From IMG/VR virus record IMGVR_UViG_3300025543_000056, positions 1-44,080 of that record: a DNA stretch of 44,080 nucleotides; one strand, 5' to 3'. The notes beneath the pieces were generated by a model. It made no database searches and had not been told where the DNA came from. It worked only from the letters and a program-made list of their open reading frames with translations. This DNA comes from a virus. Position 1 is the first letter of the stretch. Each line of letters begins with the position of its first letter. The translations under genes were made by a program, and so were the position numbers. Below, one piece after another: positions 6,351 through 40,508 of the stretch.

Positions 6351-6605
6351 ATGTATTTTAAACCTAAAGAAAATGAAGTTTACGCTAAAAGAGAAGTAAA
6401 TATCGGAGAAGTAAGTATTGAAATAAATATTATGTATCCCGACAAATTATCATGGAATGGTGTTATCAATGAATCATTACCCATTGATTATTCATCAAGT
6501 CATACCCGACTTGGAAAAATGTTAAACAAGGCTATCGCCGACTATCTAACAGAATCAGATGATTATGTAGTTTGTGGTATGAACAAAGACGGGAGTTTGA
6601 AATGA
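6351..6605 (+). CDS. Hypothetical protein, first gene of small-gene array
   Basis: An 84-aa protein, beta-rich in the first half (VNIGEVSIEINIMYPDK) and near neutral in charge. No recognised family. GGAG precedes the ATG by about 10 bases. It is the first of 15 overlapping plus-strand genes, probably expressed early from the promoter at 6287-6315. Confidence 0.65.
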   Translation: MYFKPKENEVYAKREVNIGEVSIEINIMYPDKLSWNGVINESLPIDYSSSHTRLGKMLNKAIADYLTESDDYVVCGMNKDGSLK

Positions 6606-7099
6606 AATCATTACTTAGAACAATCTTAGACGAGTGTGAGAAAAATAAACTCATGTACCGAGCCAATGCTTACGATCTAGCCGACAACGGATGCGAAGAT
6701 ATGATTGTCCCGTGGGGGTATGACTTCAAAGCCTTGGTGGAAACTATGAGTGAATTTGAACTTGACGAAAAACGGGGCAATATCCAAATTATTCCCGAGA
6801 GTAAAGTTAAGACTCATGCAGAATTAATAGATTCTATCAGATCAGATTTATTGGAATATATTTATGAAGATGAGGAAAGAAGTTTAATTCAAAATTTGAC
6901 TGATGAGCAAATTATCGACGAACAACCAGATGAATACTACTCTGGATGCTATTGCATCATGTGGACTAATTACGGGGGCAACGAACACCTTGATTGTTTT
7001 ACCGACTATACAACAGGTTTGGATAAATACTTTGATGTCAGCAAGTTAACCAACGATTGGGAAGATGAGTACAACAAATTCAGATTAGGATTGATCTAA
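6602..7099 (+). CDS. Hypothetical acidic protein
   Basis: A 165-aa strongly acidic protein (many Asp/Glu, for example YIYEDEERSL). I chose ATG 6602, which overlaps the previous stop as ATGA and has GGGAG upstream, over the longer frame from 6572. The C-terminal half contains SGCYCIMWTNYGGNEHLD, with two Cys. No known domain. The charge is of the kind found in DNA-mimic inhibitors, but this is only a composition argument. Confidence 0.65.
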   Translation: MKSLLRTILDECEKNKLMYRANAYDLADNGCEDMIVPWGYDFKALVETMSEFELDEKRGNIQIIPESKVKTHAELIDSIRSDLLEYIYEDEERSLIQNLTDEQIIDEQPDEYYSGCYCIMWTNYGGNEHLDCFTDYTTGLDKYFDVSKLTNDWEDEYNKFRLGLI

Positions 7100-7551
7100 T
7101 GGATAACCAATATTATGAAATGCCTAAGTGGTCAACTTGGGAAATTGAAACTTGGAGAAGAAAAGATAGTGCAGATTTTGAAATGTACCGACAATTTAAG
7201 TGGGCAACGCTCAATACAGATGAGTTGGAATATATCAGCAGAGACAAAGATTTTGATGAATCTCTTTTTAAATTATTTCCAACTTGCCCAAAAGAAACAG
7301 GATTTTATATTTGTATTTTTTGCTCAATAGATTCTGGATGTGATATTTATAATTTCCCGTCTTGCGAAGATGAAGAAATATTAAAAGAGTATGAAAAATT
7401 GGTTAAAGAGGAAGATTGGCTAGATGTTCTGGAAGATATGGGATATGAGCAAGAAGAATCTGCAACATATTTTCAGTTAAAAAGAACGGGAGATTTTTCT
7501 TTTGATATAACCAAAGACTTTGAAAAGTATTTTGAGGAGAACGCCAAATGA
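7099..7551 (+). CDS. Hypothetical acidic, Trp/Tyr-rich protein
   Basis: A 150-aa acidic protein with an aromatic-rich N-terminus (EMPKWSTWEIETWRRK), a Cys-containing middle (FYICIFCSIDSGCDIYNF, residues about 73-90) and an acidic helical C-terminus. TAATG overlap with the preceding stop. The four Cys could bind metal but spacing does not fit a standard zinc finger. Not recognised. Confidence 0.65.
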   Translation: MDNQYYEMPKWSTWEIETWRRKDSADFEMYRQFKWATLNTDELEYISRDKDFDESLFKLFPTCPKETGFYICIFCSIDSGCDIYNFPSCEDEEILKEYEKLVKEEDWLDVLEDMGYEQEESATYFQLKRTGDFSFDITKDFEKYFEENAK

Positions 7552-7859
7552 TTATCTATACAATTCAAGTACAGGACGGAGAGCATACATATACTGAATG
7601 GGGATATTACGAAACATTTACATTAGAACAATATGAAAACGGAGAATTATCAGATCAAGAAATACTTTCCGAATTTTATAATATTCAATTTGAAGATACC
7701 GACATTATCGGTTATGACTTTGAAACTAGCAAAGAACCTATTACTGCATTTCTATCTAACAATAGAGAAAGTTATTGGGTGGATAATGCAATCGTTGAGA
7801 TTGATTCAGTTAAAGAAATAACCCCAAAACATTTAGAAATAATCCAGAGGTACTTATGA
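7548..7859 (+). CDS. Hypothetical acidic protein
   Basis: A 103-aa acidic protein, beta-rich at first (MIIYTIQVQDGEHTYTEWGY) and then helical. It overlaps both neighbours by ATGA. Its ribosome region GAGGAGAACG followed by CCAAATGA is an early, imperfect form of the junction motif that becomes regular from 8.5 kb onward. Not recognised. Confidence 0.65.
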   Translation: MIIYTIQVQDGEHTYTEWGYYETFTLEQYENGELSDQEILSEFYNIQFEDTDIIGYDFETSKEPITAFLSNNRESYWVDNAIVEIDSVKEITPKHLEIIQRYL

Positions 7860-8116
7860 ACCGACAACAAATGATAGACATTCTATTGGAAGAAAATGTG
7901 AATGGCGATTGGACGGACAATTATTACTTTGAAAAAGATAATATACATATAGTTTGGTGTGAAGCTTTGGAACTTTGGCTCATGCTGGATTACAAAACCT
8001 TTCCTAAAACTTTTGAATCTAGCTCTACCTTAGAGGAAGCATTTAAATATGTTTTTGAAGATCAATTATCAACCGAAGGAATAAAGCATTTTTTAGATGA
8101 AAGGGGGTTGCTCTAA
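7856..8116 (+). CDS. Hypothetical protein
   Basis: An 86-aa acidic helical protein. IHIVWCEALELWLMLDYK near residues 30-47 is hydrophobic but interrupted by charges, so not a membrane segment. It shares ATGA with the previous gene and TAATG with the next. No recognised family. Confidence 0.65.
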   Translation: MNRQQMIDILLEENVNGDWTDNYYFEKDNIHIVWCEALELWLMLDYKTFPKTFESSSTLEEAFKYVFEDQLSTEGIKHFLDERGLL

Positions 8117-8460
8117 TGGATATCGGCAACAGATGTGTGAATTGTGGTAAGGATACCTCGTTTGGTTCTGGACTATTTGTTAACAGGATTCCAGCAGACG
8201 CAGATTACGAATCCGATATCAACGACGAACAAGGCAATCCTATATTTGCAGACGGAGAATACAGAGACGGATATCTTTGTCCCGATTGCTCAGCTTTACC
8301 TTGCGACAGATGTGATGAAATGATTCCCCTAGACGAAGATTTAACCCCGATTGATTTATATGGTATTGAAGATGAAAGAAGTACCAGAAACTTCTCAGAC
8401 GGCTCTTACAGAGTTCATGCTAAATGCTTGACCAAGGAAGAAGCTAAATGTTTGAGTTAG
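8116..8460 (+). CDS. Zinc-ribbon protein of the CxxCGKDTxFGSGxFVNR type
   Basis: A 114-aa protein with CVNCGKDTSFGSGLFVNRIP at residues 7-26 and further Cys pairs CPDC (about 55-58) and CDRC (about 63-66), plus a late HAKC. This block is familiar to me from small conserved phage and plasmid proteins of unknown function. The Cys spacing suggests one or two structural zinc sites. It may bind nucleic acid or a host protein; no catalytic residues are visible. It overlaps the preceding gene by one base. Confidence 0.75.
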   Translation: MDIGNRCVNCGKDTSFGSGLFVNRIPADADYESDINDEQGNPIFADGEYRDGYLCPDCSALPCDRCDEMIPLDEDLTPIDLYGIEDERSTRNFSDGSYRVHAKCLTKEEAKCLS

Positions 8461-8528
8461 CCATTTTAATATTAATGATTTTATTTGTAATAGATAACAA
8501 AACCGAGGAAAACGAAGATGATAACTAA
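8448..8528 (+). CDS. 26-residue membrane micropeptide
   Basis: Starts inside the end of the zinc-ribbon gene (ATG 8448, with AAGGAAGAAG upstream) and reads MFELAILILMILFVIDN followed by an acidic tail KTEENEDDN. A single hydrophobic helix with a charged C-terminus. Its tail is encoded by the first good copy of the junction motif. A chance frame is possible, but without it there would be a 57-base hole in an otherwise overlapping array. Confidence 0.5.
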   Translation: MFELAILILMILFVIDNKTEENEDDN

Positions 8529-8715
8529 AGAAGAATTAGAAAAAAATGATTGGACTGTAGTACCAAAAGGTGTCTGGTTTGGAGTGGACTTTGCAGAAAG
8601 CCATAAAGTAAATGTCCTTAACATACTTGCAGATTTATTAGAATTAGATACAGATGCAGAGGGATATAACTTTGTTGTATGTGCTTATAAAAAACAGGAA
8701 AACGAAGATGAATGA
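8518..8715 (+). CDS. Small hypothetical protein with ENEDE tail
   Basis: A 65-aa acidic protein; the middle is hydrophobic-helical (VNVLNILADLLELD). It ends KKQENEDE, whose last codons are the ribosome site and start of the next gene. No recognised family. Confidence 0.6.
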   Translation: MITKEELEKNDWTVVPKGVWFGVDFAESHKVNVLNILADLLELDTDAEGYNFVVCAYKKQENEDE

Positions 8716-8959
8716 TGGAGTAGAAAAAATAGTATCGCCTTTACGAAAGGCGATGAGTGAACTTGATTATGCAATCCCAGAGTATGTTTTTGATTCAGAA
8801 GATGGAAATAAAATACATGATCTGATTCAAAAAGTTTGGGATGAAATAGATAACTTAGAATACAAAGATATGACTTGGGATAGCCTAGCAGAGCAAGGTC
8901 ATTCCCCTCAGATGATTGAAAGTATTTTGGCAAAACAGGAGGCCGAAGATGAGACTTAA
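8708..8959 (+). CDS. Small hypothetical protein
   Basis: An 83-aa acidic helical protein starting MNDGVEKIVSPLRKAMSE. I chose ATG 8708, inside the junction motif, rather than the longer frame from 8654. It ends QEAEDET from the next junction copy. Not recognised. Confidence 0.6.
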   Translation: MNDGVEKIVSPLRKAMSELDYAIPEYVFDSEDGNKIHDLIQKVWDEIDNLEYKDMTWDSLAEQGHSPQMIESILAKQEAEDET

Positions 8960-9257
8960 TATTTCTGGTACAGAATATGAATTATCAGATAATCATTTTG
9001 ATAAATTTAATAAAAAGTTTAACCATATATCTGATGAACAAATTGAATATGAATTTAAAACTTTTGGTTGGGAAGTAGAATACAACAATATTGCAGTATG
9101 GGATTTAACTTTTTACAGATGTGATGATGACGGCAATGAACTCAAAGATAAAAGCGGAAAAGTAATTACTTATAATGCAGAAGCCGTTGATTGTTCCTAT
9201 TTGGCAGAGGGATTAGATATTGACGACCTAGAGGAGATAGAAGATGAAAACATTTAA
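8949..9257 (+). CDS. Small hypothetical protein
   Basis: A 102-aa acidic protein with a beta-looking N-terminus (MRLNISGTEYELSDNHF) and a start inside the junction motif (ATG 8949). It ends LEEIEDENI, the tail coming from the next, more diverged junction copy (GAGGAGATAGAAGATGA). No recognised family. Confidence 0.6.
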   Translation: MRLNISGTEYELSDNHFDKFNKKFNHISDEQIEYEFKTFGWEVEYNNIAVWDLTFYRCDDDGNELKDKSGKVITYNAEAVDCSYLAEGLDIDDLEEIEDENI

Positions 9258-9450
9258 AGTGATTACAAGTTGGACAGGTTATTCAGAAATAACTGTTCAA
9301 GCTGAAAACGAAGAACAAGCTAGGCTGTTAGTTGAAAAAGGCGAATACGATACCGATAACGAAGTCTTAACAGGCAACGGACTAGGTTATGGTTATGAGA
9401 ATGAAACAATTATCAAGGTTATAGATACCGAGGAGAACGAAGATGAGTAA
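9244..9450 (+). CDS. Small beta-sandwich-like protein (DpnD/PcfM-like pattern)
   Basis: A 68-aa protein beginning MKTFKVITSWTGYSEITVQA followed by ENEEQARLLVEKGE. The order strand-strand-(A)EN-E-EEA helix resembles the DpnD/PcfM-type small domain found in phages and conjugative elements. This is a pattern-level resemblance only. It ends EENEDE from the next junction copy. Confidence 0.6.
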   Translation: MKTFKVITSWTGYSEITVQAENEEQARLLVEKGEYDTDNEVLTGNGLGYGYENETIIKVIDTEENEDE

Positions 9451-9613
9451 AACTATGTGTTGCTCTGTTTGTAAGCAAGATAATATTTCTTGGCGAGTAT
9501 GGGCAGATGAATTAAATAATGTTAATGGCAGTTGCGAAGACAAATTTGTTTATTGTGATAATTGCGAAGATGAAACTATAGCTATTTTTAAGGAGAACGA
9601 AGATGAAAGTTAG
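9443..9613 (+). CDS. Small zinc-ribbon protein
   Basis: A 56-aa protein, MSKTMCCSVCKQDNISW at the start and CEDKFVYCDNCEDE near residues 32-45. Two CxxC pairs about 33 residues apart make a zinc ribbon likely. It starts in one junction copy and ends KENEDES in the next. Function unknown. Confidence 0.6.
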   Translation: MSKTMCCSVCKQDNISWRVWADELNNVNGSCEDKFVYCDNCEDETIAIFKENEDES

Positions 9614-9773
9614 AAAATGCAAGAACGCAGAATTAGATGCAAAGAATAAAACAGCTTTGTATTTAGATGATTTTGATAGCCTTGAAGCTTGGCAAAGTGT
9701 TTGCAAAAGTTTTAATGTTCCTATTAACGCAGATCAAATTTATTTTGATGCTGAAAATATAACTTACTGCTAA
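9603..9773 (+). CDS. Small hypothetical protein
   Basis: A 56-aa protein, MKVRKCKNAELDAKNKTALY at the start, then DDFDSLEAWQSVCKSF and a C-terminal ITYC. Unlike its neighbours it stops 12 bases before the next start, so the next junction copy is purely non-coding here. Not recognised. Confidence 0.55.
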   Translation: MKVRKCKNAELDAKNKTALYLDDFDSLEAWQSVCKSFNVPINADQIYFDAENITYC

Positions 9774-9785
9774 AGGAAACCGAAG

Positions 9786-9938
9786 ATGAATAGAGGTTGT
9801 TGCAACGAGTGTGGCTATAAAGCTGATTATATTATTGATAATAATAATTATGCAGATAATGGCTACAAAGATTTAAACCAAGTGCCAAAAGATAAAATGC
9901 TTTGTGGCGTATGTTATGAGGACAACGAAGATGAGTAA
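9786..9938 (+). CDS. Small zinc-ribbon protein
   Basis: A 50-aa protein, MNRGCCNECGYKADYI at the start and MLCGVCYEDNEDE at the end. The two CxxC pairs (about C6/C9 and C41/C44) suit a zinc ribbon. It is the second small zinc-ribbon gene in 500 bases, but outside the Cys pairs it is not similar enough to the 9443 gene to be an obvious duplicate. Confidence 0.55.
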   Translation: MNRGCCNECGYKADYIIDNNNYADNGYKDLNQVPKDKMLCGVCYEDNEDE

Positions 9939-10125
9939 TAAACTAACAGTAGAACAAATCAAAGACAGGTTGTTTGAAGTTGAAAGCAGATACTATAAAG
10001 GTTGGAAAGAGAATGAGTATTGGTGGCGAGTGAGTGGTGATGTTCACCCAACAGACAGACGACTATGGACAAGATATATAAATTTACTTAATAAAAGAAA
10101 ACAGGAGACCGAAGATAAGGACTAA
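9931..10125 (+). CDS. Small hypothetical protein, last gene of the array
   Basis: A 64-aa protein with a Trp-rich centre (YYKGWKENEYWWRVSGD) and a basic stretch RRLWTRYINLLNKRK. It ends QETEDKD, coded by a decayed junction copy. Its stop (10123-10125) shares bases with the stop of terS on the other strand, so the two operons meet with no spacer or terminator. Confidence 0.6.
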   Translation: MSNKLTVEQIKDRLFEVESRYYKGWKENEYWWRVSGDVHPTDRRLWTRYINLLNKRKQETEDKD

Positions 10126-10778
10126 TCCTCGTCCTCGTCTTTTGCTTCCTCTGGTATAGGTCTGGCCTTCTTAGATTTCTTAACAATTTTTTCCTCAACA
10201 ATTTCCCCGACTTCTATTTCTTCCCTCCCCGACAGATCCTCAATCTCAATTTCCGACTTATGTTCAATAGCTTGCTTCCCGAGTAAATCGGCGAGACGTC
10301 TTTCAACTTCATCCCGACTCATTTGATCGACCTTGCCATGCAATACTTCCCGACGATCAACAATAAGGCCCCCGACTTTCAAAAGTAAATTCTGCGCGTT
10401 AATCGCCGCTGTAAAATTACCTGCACTCCAGGCATCATCTCTAAGCTTATACAAATCCTCAACTGCGCCCTCATGCGTAAGCTCAAACTTCTTTTTCGCT
10501 TCCGCCATCAATCTTTCATATTCTCTATACACGTGCTGATACTTTCCATTTGGCCCCATGTACCGACTAACAACCTTTGGATTCTTAAAGCCTGCCTTCT
10601 TAGCCGCTTCTGCAAAAGTAAGTGTAGGATCGTTGACTGCATTCCAGACTAACAAACGCTGTCGCTTGGTTAGATTCTTCTCGTTATGATTCATATACTC
10701 AACTGGCATATCTTCTGCATCTGCTAATGTAGGCTCAACCTTCACTTTCTGTCTGATCCTCGATTCGTCCTTGCTCAT
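10122..10778 (-). CDS. terS: Terminase small subunit
   Basis: A 218-aa protein with LTKRQRLLVWNAVNDPTLTF at about 36-55, followed by AEAAKKAGFKNPKVVSRYMG, a helix-turn-helix-like unit typical of TerS. A second block, NFTAAINAQNLLLKVGG, and then DQMSRDEVERRLADLLG, is also typical of this family. The C-terminal 50 residues are low-complexity and highly charged. TerS recognises the packaging site and loads TerL. Here it is about 9.8 kb from terL, just downstream of the TGACAAAA repeat array. The gene itself carries an excess of CCCGAC words on the plus strand. Confidence 0.82.
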   Translation of the reverse strand: MSKDESRIRQKVKVEPTLADAEDMPVEYMNHNEKNLTKRQRLLVWNAVNDPTLTFAEAAKKAGFKNPKVVSRYMGPNGKYQHVYREYERLMAEAKKKFELTHEGAVEDLYKLRDDAWSAGNFTAAINAQNLLLKVGGLIVDRREVLHGKVDQMSRDEVERRLADLLGKQAIEHKSEIEIEDLSGREEIEVGEIVEEKIVKKSKKARPIPEEAKDEDED

Positions 10779-10905
10779 TTCTCACCTTATAGCTAATTAG
10801 CGTTCCGTTAAAATACCTGACTAATTCTACTACATCTGGTCTTTCAAGCAAATCTATAACTTCTTGAGGTAAAACCTCCCGACATTTTTTTACTAATTTA
10901 TACAT
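10735..10905 (-). CDS. Small hypothetical protein upstream of terS
   Basis: A 56-aa protein starting MYKLVKKCREVLPQEVIDLL. I chose ATG 10905 (GTAGGAGAAGAT ribosome site directly before it) over a TTG start at 10938 that lies inside the repeat array. Its last 44 bases overlap the terS start, suggesting coupling. It could be a partner of TerS or a repressor of the array region, but that is only positional inference. Confidence 0.6.
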   Translation of the reverse strand: MYKLVKKCREVLPQEVIDLLERPDVVELVRYFNGTLISYKVRNEQGRIEDQTESEG

Positions 10906-10917
10906 ATCTTCTCCTAC

Positions 10918-11247
10918 TTTTGTCAGAGCTCTTGACAAAACTCTGACAAAACTATCAGTACCTCTCTAAGCCCTACTAATATAATAAATAATAATATATA
11001 TGTTTATATATATATACCTTATTTATTAGTTTTGTCATACTTTTTCTTACCTACCCTTTTCTTTTACGATTATGAGGTAAATATGAGGGTTATTTTAAGG
11101 GTATCCTGACAAAATGACAAAACGCCTAAAGTGCATTCTTATCACGTTTCTAGCTGTCAGAGACTTCTGACACTCTGACAAAACTAAGCCAATTCCAGCC
11201 AAAATCGACCCAAAAGGGGGTACTTTTGTCAGAAAAGTTTGACAAAA
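10918..11247. repeat. TGACAAAA iteron array with AT-rich core (origin or pac candidate)
   Basis: Nine exact copies of TGACAAAA. Plus strand: 10933-10940, 10944-10951, 11107-11114, 11115-11122, 11176-11183, 11240-11247. Minus strand: 10918-10925, 11030-11037, 11224-11231. Six extend to TGACAAAACT. The first and last pairs are inverted repeats (10918/10933 with a 7-base spacer, 11224/11240 with 8), so they frame the array. Between them is a nearly pure A/T stretch (10974-11029), as in DNA-unwinding elements. The region (10906-11247) has no gene. Confidence 0.85.
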
Positions 11248-11517
11248 CTATTCGGGATCGTCTGAAAGAAAATCTGGGGTAAAAACGATTTCTTTTTCTA
11301 GGCCAAACTCTGCGTTAAGTATGTCGTCGATTTTTCTCACGCCTTCTTCGACCGATTGCGCGTAATTGAGAGTTTCGGTTACGCCGTAAGTAAAGATCAA
11401 CAAAGCGGTAAACTCTGCGTCTGCGCCTCTAGAAATAAAATCTTCAAAGAGTGTATCGAGTCTGCGTCGACCTTCTTCGATGGTGGGTGGGCCTTTTTCC
11501 ATTTTTACTATCTTCAT
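11248..11517 (-). CDS. Hypothetical acidic protein
   Basis: An 89-aa acidic, mainly helical protein (RRRLDTLFEDFISRGADAE; then TETLNYAQSVEEGVRKIDD). Its stop borders the last iteron copy at 11247, so the transcript would run into the repeat array. Not recognised. The ribosome site (AGG, 4 bases from ATG) is weak and an internal ATG at codon 6 is an alternative start. Confidence 0.65.
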   Translation of the reverse strand: MKIVKMEKGPPTIEEGRRRLDTLFEDFISRGADAEFTALLIFTYGVTETLNYAQSVEEGVRKIDDILNAEFGLEKEIVFTPDFLSDDPE

Positions 11518-14341: not shown

Positions 14342-15955
14342 ATGCCGTTAAGAGATTACCAACAAGAAGCTTTAAATGCTTTGGAAAACTATATTGCTAT
14401 AGAAGACGGCAATCCTTTGGTTGTTATGCCAACAGGCTCTGGTAAGTCTCATGTAATTGCAGACTTTGTTTTGCATATGAATGAACAAAAAAAACAAAAA
14501 ACTTTAATTGTTTCGCACGTTAAAGAAATACTTTTTCAAAATTATGAAAAGCTACAAGACGCTTGGCCCTATGGAGATATAGGGTTGTATGGCAACAGTT
14601 TAGGAAGCAGAGATACAGAAAACGATATTATCTATGCTCAACTTCAATCAGTTTGGAACAAGGTAGATCAACTGCCCTTATTCGATCTTCTCGCTATTGA
14701 TGAAGCGCATCTTGTTCCAAAAGACGGCGAGGGAATGTACCGTTCTCTCGTTGTCGCCCTTAAAGAACGCAATCCAAACTTACGCGTGGTTGGCTTTACC
14801 GCTACTCCATACAGACTAAACTCTGGCATGTTAACTGAAGGTGAGGGATCTATCTTTGACGATGTAGCGATAGACTTTGGTAGTGGCGATAACTTCATTC
14901 GGTTGATTGATGATGGCTATTTATCACCCTTGGTAACTAAGTGTATGGATACTGAGTACGAGTTAGAAGATATTGGTTTAAGAGGGGGTGAGTTTATTCA
15001 AACGGACTTACAGGCCAAGATGAACGATAGCGGCAGAACCAACAAAGCCATACAAGAAGTTTTAATTAAAGGCGCAAACAGAAAACAATGGCTAATATTT
15101 TGTGCTGGTATCAATCATGCAGAAATGGTCAGCGGTATTTTAAATGCTAACAATATAACTTCTCGCGTAGTAACGGGAGATACCAATCAACTGCAAAGAG
15201 ATAAGTTAATCGCTGATTATAAGAAAGGAGAGATTAGAGCTTTAGTTAATTGTGATGTATTAACGACGGGCTTTGATGCGCCAAATACAGATTTAATTAT
15301 AATGCTAAGGCCTACACATTCACCAGGCTTATATGTGCAAATGATGGGTCGAGGCATGCGTATAGCAGAGGGCAAGAAAGATTGTTTGATTTTAGACTTT
15401 GCCAAGAATATTGAACGTCATGGTCCAATTAATCAAATAGCGCCCAATCAAAAAGGCAAGCGCAAAAAGACGGGTGAAGCTCTGGTTAAGAGCTGTCCAG
15501 AATGTAAGTCATATGTACCCAAAGCTGTAACCACTTGTCCAGATTGTGGCTATGTCTATCCTATGCGTAAGTTAGAGTTAGAGCTGGTTGCATCTAAGTT
15601 AGATATTATTTCTAAAACAGCCAAGAAAGAACGCTACGATACCAAGGTTATCAACATGTGGTTTGGCAATCATCAGAAACAAGGCAAGCCGTTGCCCGTC
15701 CTAAAGGTCAGCTACAAGACACCCAATAAGATTATTAGTGAATACATCTGCTTTGAGCATTCGGGCTACGCAAGAGAAAAAGCTGTGGCTTGGTGGAGAA
15801 AAATGGTAAGTGGTGATAGCTTGCGAAGATCCCCACCCTCTACAGTAGATGAGGCTTTGTTTAGACAAACAGAGGTCAACAAACCAGATTTAATTAAAGT
15901 CGATTATTCGGGCAAGTTTCCTAATATCGTCAACCATATTTATGCAGATAGGTAA
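14342..15955 (+). CDS. Superfamily 2 DEAD/DEAH-box helicase with zinc ribbon
   Basis: A 537-aa helicase. Walker A TGSGK (31-35), DEAH (120-123), motif III TAT (153-155), C-terminal QMMGRGMR (333-340) and a zinc ribbon CPEC...CPDC (C385/C388, C399/C402). Motif order and spacing match RadD/UvsW-type DNA helicases that unwind or remodel branched DNA using ATP. It probably acts in phage replication or recombination, next to the RecE-like exonuclease. The C-terminal domain after residue 410 is specific to this group and not identified. The start abuts the upstream stop. Confidence 0.88.
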   Translation: MPLRDYQQEALNALENYIAIEDGNPLVVMPTGSGKSHVIADFVLHMNEQKKQKTLIVSHVKEILFQNYEKLQDAWPYGDIGLYGNSLGSRDTENDIIYAQLQSVWNKVDQLPLFDLLAIDEAHLVPKDGEGMYRSLVVALKERNPNLRVVGFTATPYRLNSGMLTEGEGSIFDDVAIDFGSGDNFIRLIDDGYLSPLVTKCMDTEYELEDIGLRGGEFIQTDLQAKMNDSGRTNKAIQEVLIKGANRKQWLIFCAGINHAEMVSGILNANNITSRVVTGDTNQLQRDKLIADYKKGEIRALVNCDVLTTGFDAPNTDLIIMLRPTHSPGLYVQMMGRGMRIAEGKKDCLILDFAKNIERHGPINQIAPNQKGKRKKTGEALVKSCPECKSYVPKAVTTCPDCGYVYPMRKLELELVASKLDIISKTAKKERYDTKVINMWFGNHQKQGKPLPVLKVSYKTPNKIISEYICFEHSGYAREKAVAWWRKMVSGDSLRRSPPSTVDEALFRQTEVNKPDLIKVDYSGKFPNIVNHIYADR

Positions 15956-16253: not shown

Positions 16254-17055
16254 GTCTGAGCAAAAAGGTGACACCCTGGTGTTCTCAGATATACCCAACC
16301 CTGTTTACCATGCAGGGGTCGGAGTAAGCAGCAGTAAGATTAGAGCCTTTGGCAAATCGCAACTGCATGCGGTGGAGAAAGTCCAAGAGACAACTCCTGC
16401 AATGAACTTTGGCACAGCTGCTCACGCTTTACTGGTAGAAGGTGAAGAAGCTTTTAACCAAACAGTAGCAGTAATAGTGGGATCTCCCTATACCAACGCC
16501 AACAAGGAACTAAAGAAAGAGTATGAAGAGCGTGGCCTAACGGTGATTAAAGAAGCTGAGATGACGGCAATCAAAGGTATGAAGGAGCATATGATTGAAG
16601 AAGGCAACATCTACCTTAACGCTGAAGGTAAGGTAGCAGAGGCCAGCTTCTATTGGTATGAAGGCGAGGTTCTTTGTAAGTGCCGACCAGATGTTATCTG
16701 TCCGCCAGTCCAAAGCCCATATCCAGACAACGCTATATGTGTAGTCGATTACAAGACCACTCAATCATGTGATCCAGTAGAGTTTGCTTATTCAGTTAAA
16801 AAATATGGCTACGATATGCAAGCCGCTTGGTATCGCAGAGGTATGGAAAAAGCTGGTTTTAAGTTAGATGAGTTTGTTTTTGTAGCGCAAGAGAAAGTCT
16901 ATCCCTACGCATCTAAAGTATTTATTATTTCGGAAGAGCAAATGAATCTTGGTTGGGAAAAGATGGAGGGCTTCTTGGAGCTGTATAAGAATCACTCAGA
17001 GGGTGGGCATCTATCTGTTTATAACTCGCCAAATATTGTTACCTTAGCTTTATAA
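16225..17055 (+). CDS. PD-(D/E)XK exonuclease, RecE-like (DUF3799-type)
   Basis: A 276-aa nuclease with GTAAH (63-67), CRPD (about 153-156), VVDYKTT (174-180, the D-x-K core) and QAAWYRRGM (199-207), the order seen in RecE C-terminal/YqaJ-like phage exonucleases. The family degrades one strand of duplex DNA to leave ssDNA for annealing, matching the Sak4 and DUF669 proteins at 17.6-18.8 kb. I prefer ATG 16225 (GGAG 7 bases upstream) to the ATG at 16219. It overlaps the upstream gene by 29 bases. Confidence 0.85.
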   Translation: MMIEELKEFESEQKGDTLVFSDIPNPVYHAGVGVSSSKIRAFGKSQLHAVEKVQETTPAMNFGTAAHALLVEGEEAFNQTVAVIVGSPYTNANKELKKEYEERGLTVIKEAEMTAIKGMKEHMIEEGNIYLNAEGKVAEASFYWYEGEVLCKCRPDVICPPVQSPYPDNAICVVDYKTTQSCDPVEFAYSVKKYGYDMQAAWYRRGMEKAGFKLDEFVFVAQEKVYPYASKVFIISEEQMNLGWEKMEGFLELYKNHSEGGHLSVYNSPNIVTLAL

Positions 17056-17057
17056 TC

Positions 17058-17315
17058 GTGCCAGCTTACAAATTTAGAGAGGATGTTTCTCTTGCTGAGC
17101 TGAAAGATTATATAGACAGCACCTACGATCAGCACTATGCCAAAGGTAAGTACCAGGCAACAGATATGATTGTAGATGCTGGTTTTGGCGAAGGATTTTG
17201 TATTGGCAATATAATGAAATACGCCATGCGCTATGGTAAAAAAGACGATAAAAAAAAGGAGCTACTTAAAATCATTCACTATGCAATGATTGCCTTGTAC
17301 GTCAACGATCAATAA
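17058..17315 (+). CDS. DUF3310-like phage protein
   Basis: An 85-aa protein with GEGFCIGNIMKYAMRYGKKD near residues 48-67 and LLKIIHYAMIAL at the end. This is the pattern of the small DUF3310 (SaV-like) phage proteins found near replication genes. Their function is not settled. The start is GTG (17058), two bases after the previous stop. Confidence 0.75.
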   Translation: MPAYKFREDVSLAELKDYIDSTYDQHYAKGKYQATDMIVDAGFGEGFCIGNIMKYAMRYGKKDDKKKELLKIIHYAMIALYVNDQ

Positions 17316-17337
17316 AAATTATGCTAGGATTATAGGT

Positions 17338-17547
17338 ATGTTATTTCCTAGTATCCCCCAATATCTGTGCGTTTATGAAATAGACAGCAACCTTCATATG
17401 GTTGTTTTGCAGGCCAGAAACTCTGATACCGCAGAGCTATTTGCTTTACTGCGTTCTATGGAAGAAAGCTCTGATTATACGTTTGGAAAAATTCTAGACG
17501 TTAGCGAAATAGATCCCTCTCATCACATTAGTCTAACCATTCATTAA
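17338..17547 (+). CDS. Small hypothetical protein
   Basis: A 69-aa protein, MLFPSIPQYLCVYEIDSNLH, with strands and a helical middle (TAELFALLRSMEE). I chose ATG 17338 over the longer frame from 17290 that overlaps the DUF3310-like gene. It ends before a 74-base convergent spacer in which I see no good terminator. Confidence 0.55.
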   Translation: MLFPSIPQYLCVYEIDSNLHMVVLQARNSDTAELFALLRSMEESSDYTFGKILDVSEIDPSHHISLTIH

Positions 17548-18903: not shown

Positions 18904-18936
18904 TGTGTGAACATTAAATTTTTAACGGAATGTAAA

Positions 18937-19272
18937 ATGAGAGAAGTAGACCAAAATCAATGGAGAGTGAATTATCTCTGGAGGTTGAAAAACCTAACCA
19001 ATGAAGAGCTTAAATCATTTAAACAGAAAAATCTAGAACCTGAACATAAGGAGAGGGAAGTGCAAAGAATAACTTTAAAGAAGTATATAGAATTTATCGG
19101 AACAGAGCCTGCGGCAGAATTATTTGATTGTTCAGCAGCATCAACCAAAGCTTGGAGGTATGGTTTAAGACAGCCTTCAATTAAACAAGCTAAAAAAATT
19201 ATTAAAGCATCTGGCGGTAAGCTAGACTTCGAGTCTATCTTTGGTCCTATTGAAGAAAGTAGTGAAAGTTAA
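18937..19272 (+). CDS. Cro/YdaS-like HTH regulator
   Basis: A 111-aa protein from ATG 18937 (ribosome site ACGGAATG). The C-terminal half holds AAELFDCSAASTKAWRYGLR then QPSIKQAKKIIKASGGKLD, a helix-turn-helix followed by the QA..I..ASGG ending typical of Cro/YdaS-type proteins. Located at the divergent 18845-18936 spacer, it could control the Sak4-DUF669 pair, the primase operon, or itself. The N-terminal 50 residues are charged and not recognised. Confidence 0.65.
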   Translation: MREVDQNQWRVNYLWRLKNLTNEELKSFKQKNLEPEHKEREVQRITLKKYIEFIGTEPAAELFDCSAASTKAWRYGLRQPSIKQAKKIIKASGGKLDFESIFGPIEESSES

Positions 19273-19274
19273 GA

Positions 19275-21398
19275 GTGTTCAATTTACAAGTAACAGCGCA
19301 AGACTCTGCGTTGGACTTAGCTCTGGCTTATGCAGAATACGGCATAAGCGTAGTACCACTACATAGACACAATAAAGTTCCGCCTAAAGAATTAGGGGGG
19401 TGGCAAAAGTTTCAAGAGCGACAGCCGACGACGGAAGAAATAGAAAAATGGTTTAAAGGGCGAGATGATTTAGTCGTCGCTTTAGTCTGTGGAAAGTTTA
19501 TTGTTATAGATGCAGATACACCCGAAGCAGTAAATTGGTGTGAGGCCAACTTACCAGTAACACCTTTTAAAGTAGCAACAGGGAAAGGGGTTCATTATTA
19601 TTACAACAATCCAGAAAACTTTACTACTTGGGTAGCCAAAAGAACTGAGGGCTATGACCCAGCTAAGTTAATTGATATTAGAGGTGTGGGTGGTTTAATT
19701 GTTGCCCCTCATAATATTCATGCAACTGGCGCTATTTATACCCCTACAAAGATTGATGATTGGGATCTAAATGATGTTGATGATTTACCAAACTTAACTC
19801 AAGAATTATGGGTAAAAATAACTGGTGTTGAGAAACTTAATGGTCAGCCTATAGCTGCGCCTTTATCTATTGACGGCATATCAGAGGGTGGCAGAAATGA
19901 CCAAGCCGCTAGACTTGCTGGTTATTTAATAGCTAAAGGTTTGAATACAGAGTTTACAGAGTTCTTCGTTCAATCTTGGAACGAACAAAACAAACCGCCT
20001 TTATCAAGGTCTGAAATATCTACAACAGTTAATTCAATTCAGAAAACTCATGATAGAAAAAATCAACAAGCTCCTGCTTATATATCAACAACCAAAAATG
20101 TAAAAGAGCCTGTTAATCTTTTTTCTCCTCCAGGAGTATTAAAAGATATTTACGAATACTCAGAAGAGATAGCACATATATCTCAACCAGCTATTAGCAT
20201 GCAAGCAGCTTTATCCTTGGGTTCAGTAGCTTTGGGTAGGATGTATAGAACCAATATGAATAACTTTGCATCTTTGTTCTTTATGTGTATCGCTAAGTCT
20301 GGGCAAGGTAAAGAAAATGTTAAGACGGTTGTTGAAACTATTTTAGATCATGCAGAATACAGCGATTTAATGGCAGGAGACGGTTATACATCAAGTGGTG
20401 CTATTTACAGCTTACTTAGATATAAACCAACCCACATAACTGTAATGGATGAGTTTGGTAAAAGATTAGAAAGCATATCTAAATCTTCTAATTCAAACAA
20501 AGAAGACGCATTACAAATACTTATGGAGACGTGGGGAAGATGTCATGGTGTCTTAAGACCAGATAACTATTCAATGATGACACTAACTAATAAACAACAA
20601 AAAGAAGTATTAGATAGATCAACGATTAAGCCTGCAATTACTTTGGTCGGTATGAGTGTGCCTAAAAACTTTTACGGCGCCTTATCGACAGGCCGTATTG
20701 TAGACGGTTTCTTAAATAGATTTATTGTCGTCGAGTCTCACGTGCCAAGAACCGTTGGCAAAATGGTTTCTTTTGTCGAACCTCCGCAATCGACCTACGA
20801 TTGGGTTTCGCATGTAAGACAGGTTGACAATGAAATGGAGCAAATATCTAGAGACAATGCTGAGCTAGATTTTAAACAAAGAGTATTGAGGTTTGACGAT
20901 GATTCAAATGCGTTACTAGATAGCTTGGCTTATAAGTTAGTGGACCAACAAAATGCTTTAGAGAAAGAAGGCTTAGAGGTTTTGTTATCAAGAACAAGGG
21001 AAAAAGCAATGCGTTTGGCTTTGATTGGAGCTTTAGCAGATGATCGCAAGGCCAAAACTATCAAAGGCGATATAACTCAATGGGCGATAGATTATGTCTA
21101 TTACTACGATCAAGTTTTAATTGAAAGCTGTAAAGATAAAGTTGCAGGTTCCGAAATGGAAGGACGTATTAAACAAATACTTAGCTTTATTAGGTCGCAA
21201 GGAGAATGGGGTATAAGTAAGCGTGATATTGATCGACGTGAAATATTTAGATCAATGAAGTCATACGAAGTAAAAGAAATTATAGAACGATTAAAAAACT
21301 CAGGGGAGATACAAGAAAAAGATTTAAGAGCAAAAGGAACTGGACGACCAACCAAACGTATTGTTGCAATTGATCCAGAATTTTTTAATGAAGATTGA
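19275..21398 (+). CDS. Prim-Pol primase fused to DUF3987-like helicase ATPase
   Basis: A 707-aa protein with GTG start. The N-terminus is a bifunctional primase-polymerase domain: ...IVIDAD (D79, D81), GKGVHYYY (H107), DIRGVGG (134-140), IVAP. A linker with GRNDQAARLAGYLI (207-220) follows. The second half is a DUF3987-type ATPase: AKSGQGKEN (340-348) Walker A and VMDEFGK (390-396) Walker B. The family makes primers and unwinds DNA. No separate polymerase is visible, so this may be the main replication enzyme. The C-terminal 80 residues look like a winged helix. Confidence 0.87.
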   Translation: MFNLQVTAQDSALDLALAYAEYGISVVPLHRHNKVPPKELGGWQKFQERQPTTEEIEKWFKGRDDLVVALVCGKFIVIDADTPEAVNWCEANLPVTPFKVATGKGVHYYYNNPENFTTWVAKRTEGYDPAKLIDIRGVGGLIVAPHNIHATGAIYTPTKIDDWDLNDVDDLPNLTQELWVKITGVEKLNGQPIAAPLSIDGISEGGRNDQAARLAGYLIAKGLNTEFTEFFVQSWNEQNKPPLSRSEISTTVNSIQKTHDRKNQQAPAYISTTKNVKEPVNLFSPPGVLKDIYEYSEEIAHISQPAISMQAALSLGSVALGRMYRTNMNNFASLFFMCIAKSGQGKENVKTVVETILDHAEYSDLMAGDGYTSSGAIYSLLRYKPTHITVMDEFGKRLESISKSSNSNKEDALQILMETWGRCHGVLRPDNYSMMTLTNKQQKEVLDRSTIKPAITLVGMSVPKNFYGALSTGRIVDGFLNRFIVVESHVPRTVGKMVSFVEPPQSTYDWVSHVRQVDNEMEQISRDNAELDFKQRVLRFDDDSNALLDSLAYKLVDQQNALEKEGLEVLLSRTREKAMRLALIGALADDRKAKTIKGDITQWAIDYVYYYDQVLIESCKDKVAGSEMEGRIKQILSFIRSQGEWGISKRDIDRREIFRSMKSYEVKEIIERLKNSGEIQEKDLRAKGTGRPTKRIVAIDPEFFNED

Positions 21399-39446: not shown

Positions 39447-40508
39447 TTACCTCGCTGTTGTTGGGATTCCTGTTGATGTTACAAATGGATTTTCTGCCCA
39501 TGCCATATAGATGTATGTATGACTGCTTTGGTTTACCCAGCCAAAACTTGAACGCAGTTTAAAGCCATTGCTTAATATGTCTATATTTGCATTTGCATTA
39601 TCATATTCTGCTGCATCTGAATTTGGTCTTAATGCTCTATCAACCACATTGCCGTTACTATCACTTCTTTTGTCATCGTACACCATCCAGTTATCGCCAT
39701 TATCACTTGATTTTTTAAGTAATATGTAGGCAGGTTTGAAACCTGTATAAACAAACGGACCATTTGTATCTCCATTGCCGTAATAACTGCCAAACTTGCT
39801 GTAGCCTTTAATTGGACTCCACGCATAACATATATAAGTAGCTGTATCTGCGTTTGTGTTTGGATTCCCTGAATCTCCTACTCTTATATTTGTAGCATCA
39901 GGTAATGTACTATTCATAAAAGAAGCATCGGCATCTTTGCCGTCTGTGCTATTAAGTACAATTTTATAATCATCCCCTAAAGCAACATGCCAACACGCCC
40001 AAACATTTGTAGCATCTCTTCTTTTAAATATAATCCATTCGGGAGCAGAAGGTAAACCATGAGCTATATTGCCTGGTGCACCTGTTCCTGTGTAAGCTAT
40101 AATGCTAAATCCTCCTGCTGTATTTGTTTGTATAGTTCCACCAGGATTATTACCACTTTCAGTAAAAGAACTTGTACTACCTGCATTGGCTTTCCAGTTC
40201 CAACAAACCATTGAATTTTCATTAACTGCTGCTGCTGATGTAACTCTAAAACCATCTGACTGAAACTGAGTTAAACCATTGGTAACTGTTGTCTCTACAT
40301 TTGTAACATCAGAAAAAAGAGCTTTTGTTGTTCCTCTTGAACTATCATAAAGTTGATTTGAATATCCTACATCTCTATTTTTAAACCAAACAAGGTCAGG
40401 CTGCATATCTGAATTACCATCAAGAGTAACATTATGTATTCCACTTGTTCCTTCATAAATTTTAGCTTGAAAATTTTCTGAAGGATCATCTACTGTTGTA
40501 TAAGCCAT
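39447..40508 (-). CDS. Tail/receptor-type protein (DUF7483-like)
   Basis: A 353-aa protein from ATG 40508, which shares one base with the previous stop (the longer frame is not used). DLVWFKNRDVGYSNQLYDS and SDGFRVTSAAAVNENSMV resemble a module common in marine phage tail proteins; it recurs (ILLKKSSDNGDNWMVYDDK; NGFKLRSSF), so the gene looks like a tandem duplication of the domain. It may form the host-contacting part of the tail. Confidence 0.65.
   Translation of the reverse strand: MAYTTVDDPSENFQAKIYEGTSGIHNVTLDGNSDMQPDLVWFKNRDVGYSNQLYDSSRGTTKALFSDVTNVETTVTNGLTQFQSDGFRVTSAAAVNENSMVCWNWKANAGSTSSFTESGNNPGGTIQTNTAGGFSIIAYTGTGAPGNIAHGLPSAPEWIIFKRRDATNVWACWHVALGDDYKIVLNSTDGKDADASFMNSTLPDATNIRVGDSGNPNTNADTATYICYAWSPIKGYSKFGSYYGNGDTNGPFVYTGFKPAYILLKKSSDNGDNWMVYDDKRSDSNGNVVDRALRPNSDAAEYDNANANIDILSNGFKLRSSFGWVNQSSHTYIYMAWAENPFVTSTGIPTTAR

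Follow-up and report, generated by a model that had tools for sequence, protein, structure and literature searches.

The small terminase subunit gene (terS) of an uncultured phage lies ~140 bp from an array of nine exact TGACAAAA words that flank an A/T-rich core. From sequence comparison, we consider it somewhat probable that this array is a TerS-bound packaging-initiation (pac-like) site, a reading that also takes the source to be an uncultured marine tailed phage.

An array of exact words lies beside terS

The window, by which we mean the whole 44,080-nucleotide stretch that was analyzed, is a linear piece, 44 kb long, of the genome of an uncultured phage. Its right-hand genes are structural, and the replication genes (endonuclease, helicase, exonuclease, DUF669 SSB, Sak4, HTH protein, and Prim-Pol/PriCT/DUF3987 primase) occupy 13.5–21.4 kb. 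A search for direct DNA similarity to deposited phages returned none, and we found no RNA elements or tRNAs. The features discussed below are as follows (positions in the window; strand in brackets).

2–262 (−): start of TerL, truncated at the contig end; 49–55% identity to the HTVC023P/027P TerL
10122–10778 (−): terS, small terminase subunit and proposed reader of the array; 32–33% identity to the annotated TerS of pelagiphages HTVC027P and HTVC023P
10735–10905 (−): 56-aa ORF in the interval between the array and terS, overlapping terS; poorly conserved
10918–11247 (no strand): iteron array of nine TGACAAAA words, from exact-word search, 8-mer scan, and simulation
10918–10925 (−), 10933–10940 (+), 10944–10951 (+): TGACAAAA copies 1–3, exact matches
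11030–11037 (−), 11107–11114 (+), 11115–11122 (+): TGACAAAA copies 4–6, exact matches
11176–11183 (+), 11224–11231 (−), 11240–11247 (+): TGACAAAA copies 7–9, exact matches
10978–11033 (no strand): A/T-rich core, 52/56 A/T (93%), richer in A/T than any other 56-mer of the window
11131–11160 (−): embedded element CTGACAGCTAGAAACGTGATAAGAATGCAC, with the core TGACAGCTAnAAACrTGATAAGAATG common to type-X phages (see below)
11248–11517 (−): 89-aa ORF, conserved neighbor on the far side of the array
18907–19272 (+): 121-aa YdaS/Cro-like HTH protein, just upstream of Prim-Pol; the binder if the array were an origin
19275–21398 (+): Prim-Pol/PriCT/DUF3987 primase-helicase

Exact matching recovered the nine 8-mers in 330 bases that a preliminary description of this DNA had reported, as well as the inversion of the first and last word pairs (at 10918/10933 and 11224/11240, with spacers of 7 bp and 8 bp, respectively). 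The 56-base A/T stretch that it had called nearly pure is best placed at the core listed above, which is indeed nearly pure and not pure. Its statement that the 330 bases are gene-free holds for the span between the stop codon of the 89-aa ORF and the ATG (10905) of the 56-aa ORF, except that a TTG-start extension of the latter would reach 10938. Within the array, steps of 8 bp and 11 bp recur, the extended consensus of the unit is TGACAAAACT, and partial words with the TGACA core (TGTCAGAGACTTCTGACA) are present at 11156–11172. The single further copy of TGACAAAA in the whole window, the tenth, is isolated at 39668. When the whole window was simulated (100 first-order Markov runs), no 8-mer exceeded five copies per 400 bp, three being the usual maximum, and the local Markov expectation for TGACAAAA was 0.016 per 330 bp with a maximum of one copy in 2000 simulations. 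TGACAAAA also ranked first in an unbiased scan of all 8-mers in the window and two relatives.

Between terS and terL, the window also carries about a dozen tiny plus-strand genes (6351–9938), which run against the direction of the late genes.

The words are conserved upstream of terS

TerS relatives were taken from IMG/VR, and we counted those loci in which TerS was 66–98% identical and enough upstream DNA was present (n = 74). All 74 carried 5–11 exact TGACAAAA words upstream of terS, at 110–530 bp bar one extra copy in one locus, with almost none, and usually zero, elsewhere in the locus. Thus no relative with the same terS lacked the array, and this outcome, which the preliminary description had named as one that would refute its reading, did not occur. 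Two array layouts occur among these relatives. In an alignment of 18 members with the layout of the window, the word columns were 98.5% conserved compared to 74.6% for the spacers, and the A/T core retained its composition while its sequence drifted. These comparisons show that the array is under strong word-specific conservation and fixed beside terS. The 56-aa gene that the preliminary description had offered as a possible source of the binder was often only 38–55% identical in relatives, or not detected, while the words stayed fixed, and it is a poor candidate for that reason. In TerS itself, residues 25–70, the expected HTH region, are ~80% conserved.

Since the contigs of the IMG/VR relatives run through the array and continue on both sides, the array is not a fixed genome end, and a reading as a cos site or terminal repeat is disfavored. 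Host or prophage copies were sought in 84,980 bacterial and archaeal genomes, in which we found no arrays and five isolated triplets.

Exchange of the replication module leaves the array with terS

A set of recombinant contigs allowed the array to be followed separately from the replication genes. From the exonuclease through the array, a stretch of 2983 bp, contigs L110 and L176 are 99.8% identical, after which they diverge sharply. Their replication modules differ, with identities to the window of 56% vs. 74% for Prim-Pol, 47% vs. 53% for the HTH protein, and 60% vs. 77% for Sak4, and the arrays are alike bar one or two bases (four contigs of each kind). The sister contigs L106/L177 and L176 have the same TerS type. 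Conversely, L110 and L488 share an SSB-Sak4-HTH-Prim-Pol block that is 99.2% identical over 4.5 kb, and L488 has a TerS that is only ~48% identical, upstream of which a single exact TGACAAAA stands among 4–6 words with the TGACA core. Eleven other phages of this kind, here called type X, have 1–3 exact TGACAAAA upstream of a ~50% identical TerS, and in those with ~22 kb of DNA no 8-mer reached five copies. The type-X region nevertheless retains the core of the element at window positions 11131–11160, suggesting that the reduced and the full sites share a common ancestry and making this element a candidate target of the first cut or of a bending protein.

The word pattern thus appears to go with the TerS type and not with the replication genes, as judged from one recombinant lineage in which array and terS are physically linked. 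Since the L110 and L488 modules are 99.2% identical and the type-X sites are reduced, near-identical initiators must function with and without the full array. The HTH protein, the other binder named in the preliminary description, belongs to the module whose exchange leaves the array unchanged, and we regard TerS as a better binder candidate than either this protein or the 56-aa protein. It was also observed that the exchanged DNA starts at a sharp junction, located between the exonuclease and SSB genes, the whole SSB-Sak4-HTH-Prim-Pol module being swapped between phages of different TerS.

PolA pelagiphages carry their own array at terS

HTVC023P-type phages replicate with PolA, have a TerS that is 33% identical to that of the window, and yielded no detectable relative of the Prim-Pol of the window. 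In most of the 51 members examined, CTAGGAAA words lie 100–270 bp upstream of terS and are nearly absent from the remainder of the flanks. Relatives with this array fall within L399–L478, and in cultured pelagiphage HTVC023P (L100) it is at 7768–7868. The spacing is conserved in most members (8, 11, 21; 186/178/134/123/102), and in some the word has drifted in concert across its copies, for example to CTGGGAAA or CTAAGAAA. This group (PMC9599517) therefore resembles the window in its related TerL/TerS and in having an array upstream of terS, and differs in the word and in PolA replication. A second kind of PolA phage (L313-type) has four TGACAAAA words at a distance of ~320 bp from the 3' end of its terS, the product of which is 26% identical.

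Roseobacter phages CRP-901 and CRP-902 (PMC10149686) also have related TerL/TerS, and the CRP-901 type joins a Prim-Pol module to HTVC023P-like structural genes, the same two module kinds as here; CRP-902, although its TerS/TerL are HTVC023P-like, has no array at its terS. Likewise, we saw no obvious exact-word array upstream of terS in HTVC027P. In the latter (L480), TGTTACAATG/TGTTTCAC-like repeats occur at 14739–14953, in the gap from the exonuclease to the terS-adjacent gene, which is the place of the TGACAAAA array in L313-type phages, and many CAAGC(C/T)ACAAGC-type repeats occur at ~16513–17511 in and around the annotated ORFs gp32–gp33.

The same word occurs beside primases in other phages

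A search for the word itself in 2.9 million contigs, in which chance coincidence is possible, returned four phages that carry it beside a primase gene. In L107 (2710–3008), nine words lie immediately downstream of a Prim-Pol/DUF3987 gene whose product is 25% identical to that of the window and belongs to the same module kind. The array is at the 3' end of a Toprim/AAA_25 primase-helicase gene in L299 (6762–6878), of a PriCT_2/AAA_25 primase-helicase gene in L321 (3248–3360; likewise in L365), and of a Prim-Pol + D5 gene in L363 (3676–4062); in L321 the true repeat unit is longer, CAGGTGTGACAAAA. None of the four has a detectable relative of the TerS of the window. The TGACA-type arrays of these phages are probably their replication origins. 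When relatives of the L107 Prim-Pol were sought in order to assess conservation of its array, only L107 itself was found. Elsewhere, L369 (13779–13954) carries nine direct TGACAAAA words in 10-bp steps and two blocks, and Moraxella phage Mcat10 (L389, 3552–4139) has a CGCAGACA-type repeat array downstream of its primase gene that is a possible origin.

The primase and HTH proteins of the window were modeled. The C-terminal tail of Prim-Pol (approximately residues 631–705) was modeled as a winged helix with moderate confidence; a fold search with it gave generic winged-helix matches that lacked significance, and a PDB profile match was rejected as a chance match. The tail is among the best-conserved protein parts within its family (82% vs. 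60–80% elsewhere), which would fit an initiator, but one that is without a tie to this array. The HTH protein was modeled as a five-helix domain that is closest to prophage YdaS, with an E-value that was not significant. As a speculative aside, the NrS-1 Prim-Pol priming motif TTTGGTTA resembles TTTTGTCA in 6/8 bases.

Packaging site, replication origin, or operator

If the array is a packaging site, a TerS ring encoded ~140 bp away would bind the TGACAAAA words, with their TGACA core, on the flanks of the flexible A/T core, wrap the 330-bp stretch, and present to TerL a target beside or within it, which may be the conserved element at 11131–11160. TerL would then make the first cut of the concatemer at this target and packaging would run by headful. 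We infer each of these steps, namely binding, wrapping, cut site, and headful packaging. Lambda cosB, in which the R1–R3 sites are bound by the TerS gpNu1, is similar in having repeated TerS sites (predicted ones here) just upstream of terS. The words of the present array are far more numerous and shorter, and since contigs cross the site there is no sign of a fixed cohesive end. The pac site of SPP1 lies at and upstream of terS, and its TerS, gp1, binds pacL and pacR (PMC6316719). The two sites are alike in being a non-coding stretch at and upstream of terS with TerS binding, as proposed here, at several places and the cut site between or beside them; in the present case, however, an A/T core is surrounded by 8–11 exact 8-mers within 330 bp, TerS binding is a prediction, a small gene lies between the site and terS, and terS is kilobases from terL. 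TerS rings bind DNA with many HTH motifs (PMC4737164).

The preliminary description had left the choice between an origin and a TerS-bound packaging site. Having favored an origin on account of L107 and the other primase-adjacent arrays, we reversed this view in the light of the HTVC023P arrays and the recombinants, and packaging is now preferred because the array stays with terS during replication-module exchange and the PolA sister group has its own array at terS. An iteron-type origin, to which either Prim-Pol/DUF3987, by means of the winged helix at its C terminus, or the YdaS-like HTH protein would bind, melting the A/T core and loading the helicase, is weakened by these results to a rather unlikely, if still serious, alternative. 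P4/SaPI-type replicons offer parallels for such an origin. The repeats do adjoin an A/T-rich region of the unwinding type, the Prim-Pol tail modeled as a winged helix is strongly conserved, and in L107, L299, L321, and L363 the same word in a similar geometry (steps of 11 bp and an A/T core that separates the sites) lies directly downstream of the primase-helicase, although these four word-driven cases may be chance. SPP1 oriL/oriR, too, consist of direct repeats, bound by gp38, next to an A/T unwinding element (PMC6316719), and the likeness is that of repeats beside an A/T-rich stretch; here, in contrast, the array is 8 kb from Prim-Pol, and recombination separates it from the replication module, near-identical modules occurring with a full array (L110) or with one exact word (L488). 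PolA phages with no Prim-Pol relative carry an array at the same place beside terS. After detrending, the GC-skew minima are 2–9 kb away from the array; they track gene direction, which confounds the skew. An origin with a tolerant TGACA-reading initiator may adjoin terS by chance, since the co-segregation stems from one lineage and close linkage.

Several findings count against packaging as well, namely the same-word arrays beside primases in phages with no detectable TerS relative, the likeness of the A/T core to an origin unwinding element, and the lack of an evident exact-word array at terS in CRP-902 and HTVC027P. Linkage by itself might account for the array staying beside terS, and words with the TGACA core persist in type-X phages. 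A cluster of operators, through which a phage or host regulator would control the promoter that the 56-aa gene and terS share as an operon, or silence early transcription, seems improbable to us. Such a cluster would suit the position of the array upstream of the terS operon, the weak sigma-70-like match (10/12) inside it, and the YdaS/Cro-like protein encoded in the genome, but promoter-like matches are at chance level (3 found vs. 2.1 expected), a single promoter would not call for as many as eight to eleven sites spread over 330 bp at several helical steps, and the HTH gene is swapped while the array is unchanged. We give similarly little weight to the proposal that one site serves as both origin and packaging start, with TerS and the Prim-Pol winged helix (or the HTH protein) reading the same TGACA-core word. 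If true, such a dual-use site would link the completion of replication with the first cut for packaging, and would explain why the word adjoins primases in some phages but terS in others.

Significance

A literature search with the bare word returned nothing useful, and the papers found on this phage group map neither a packaging nor a replication start site. Among uncultured marine phages, almost none has had such sites mapped. The conserved array is visible in raw contigs and has an equivalent in HTVC023P, which would open the packaging signal of an abundant phage group to direct testing, and the recombinants constitute a natural experiment that separates packaging from replication functions.
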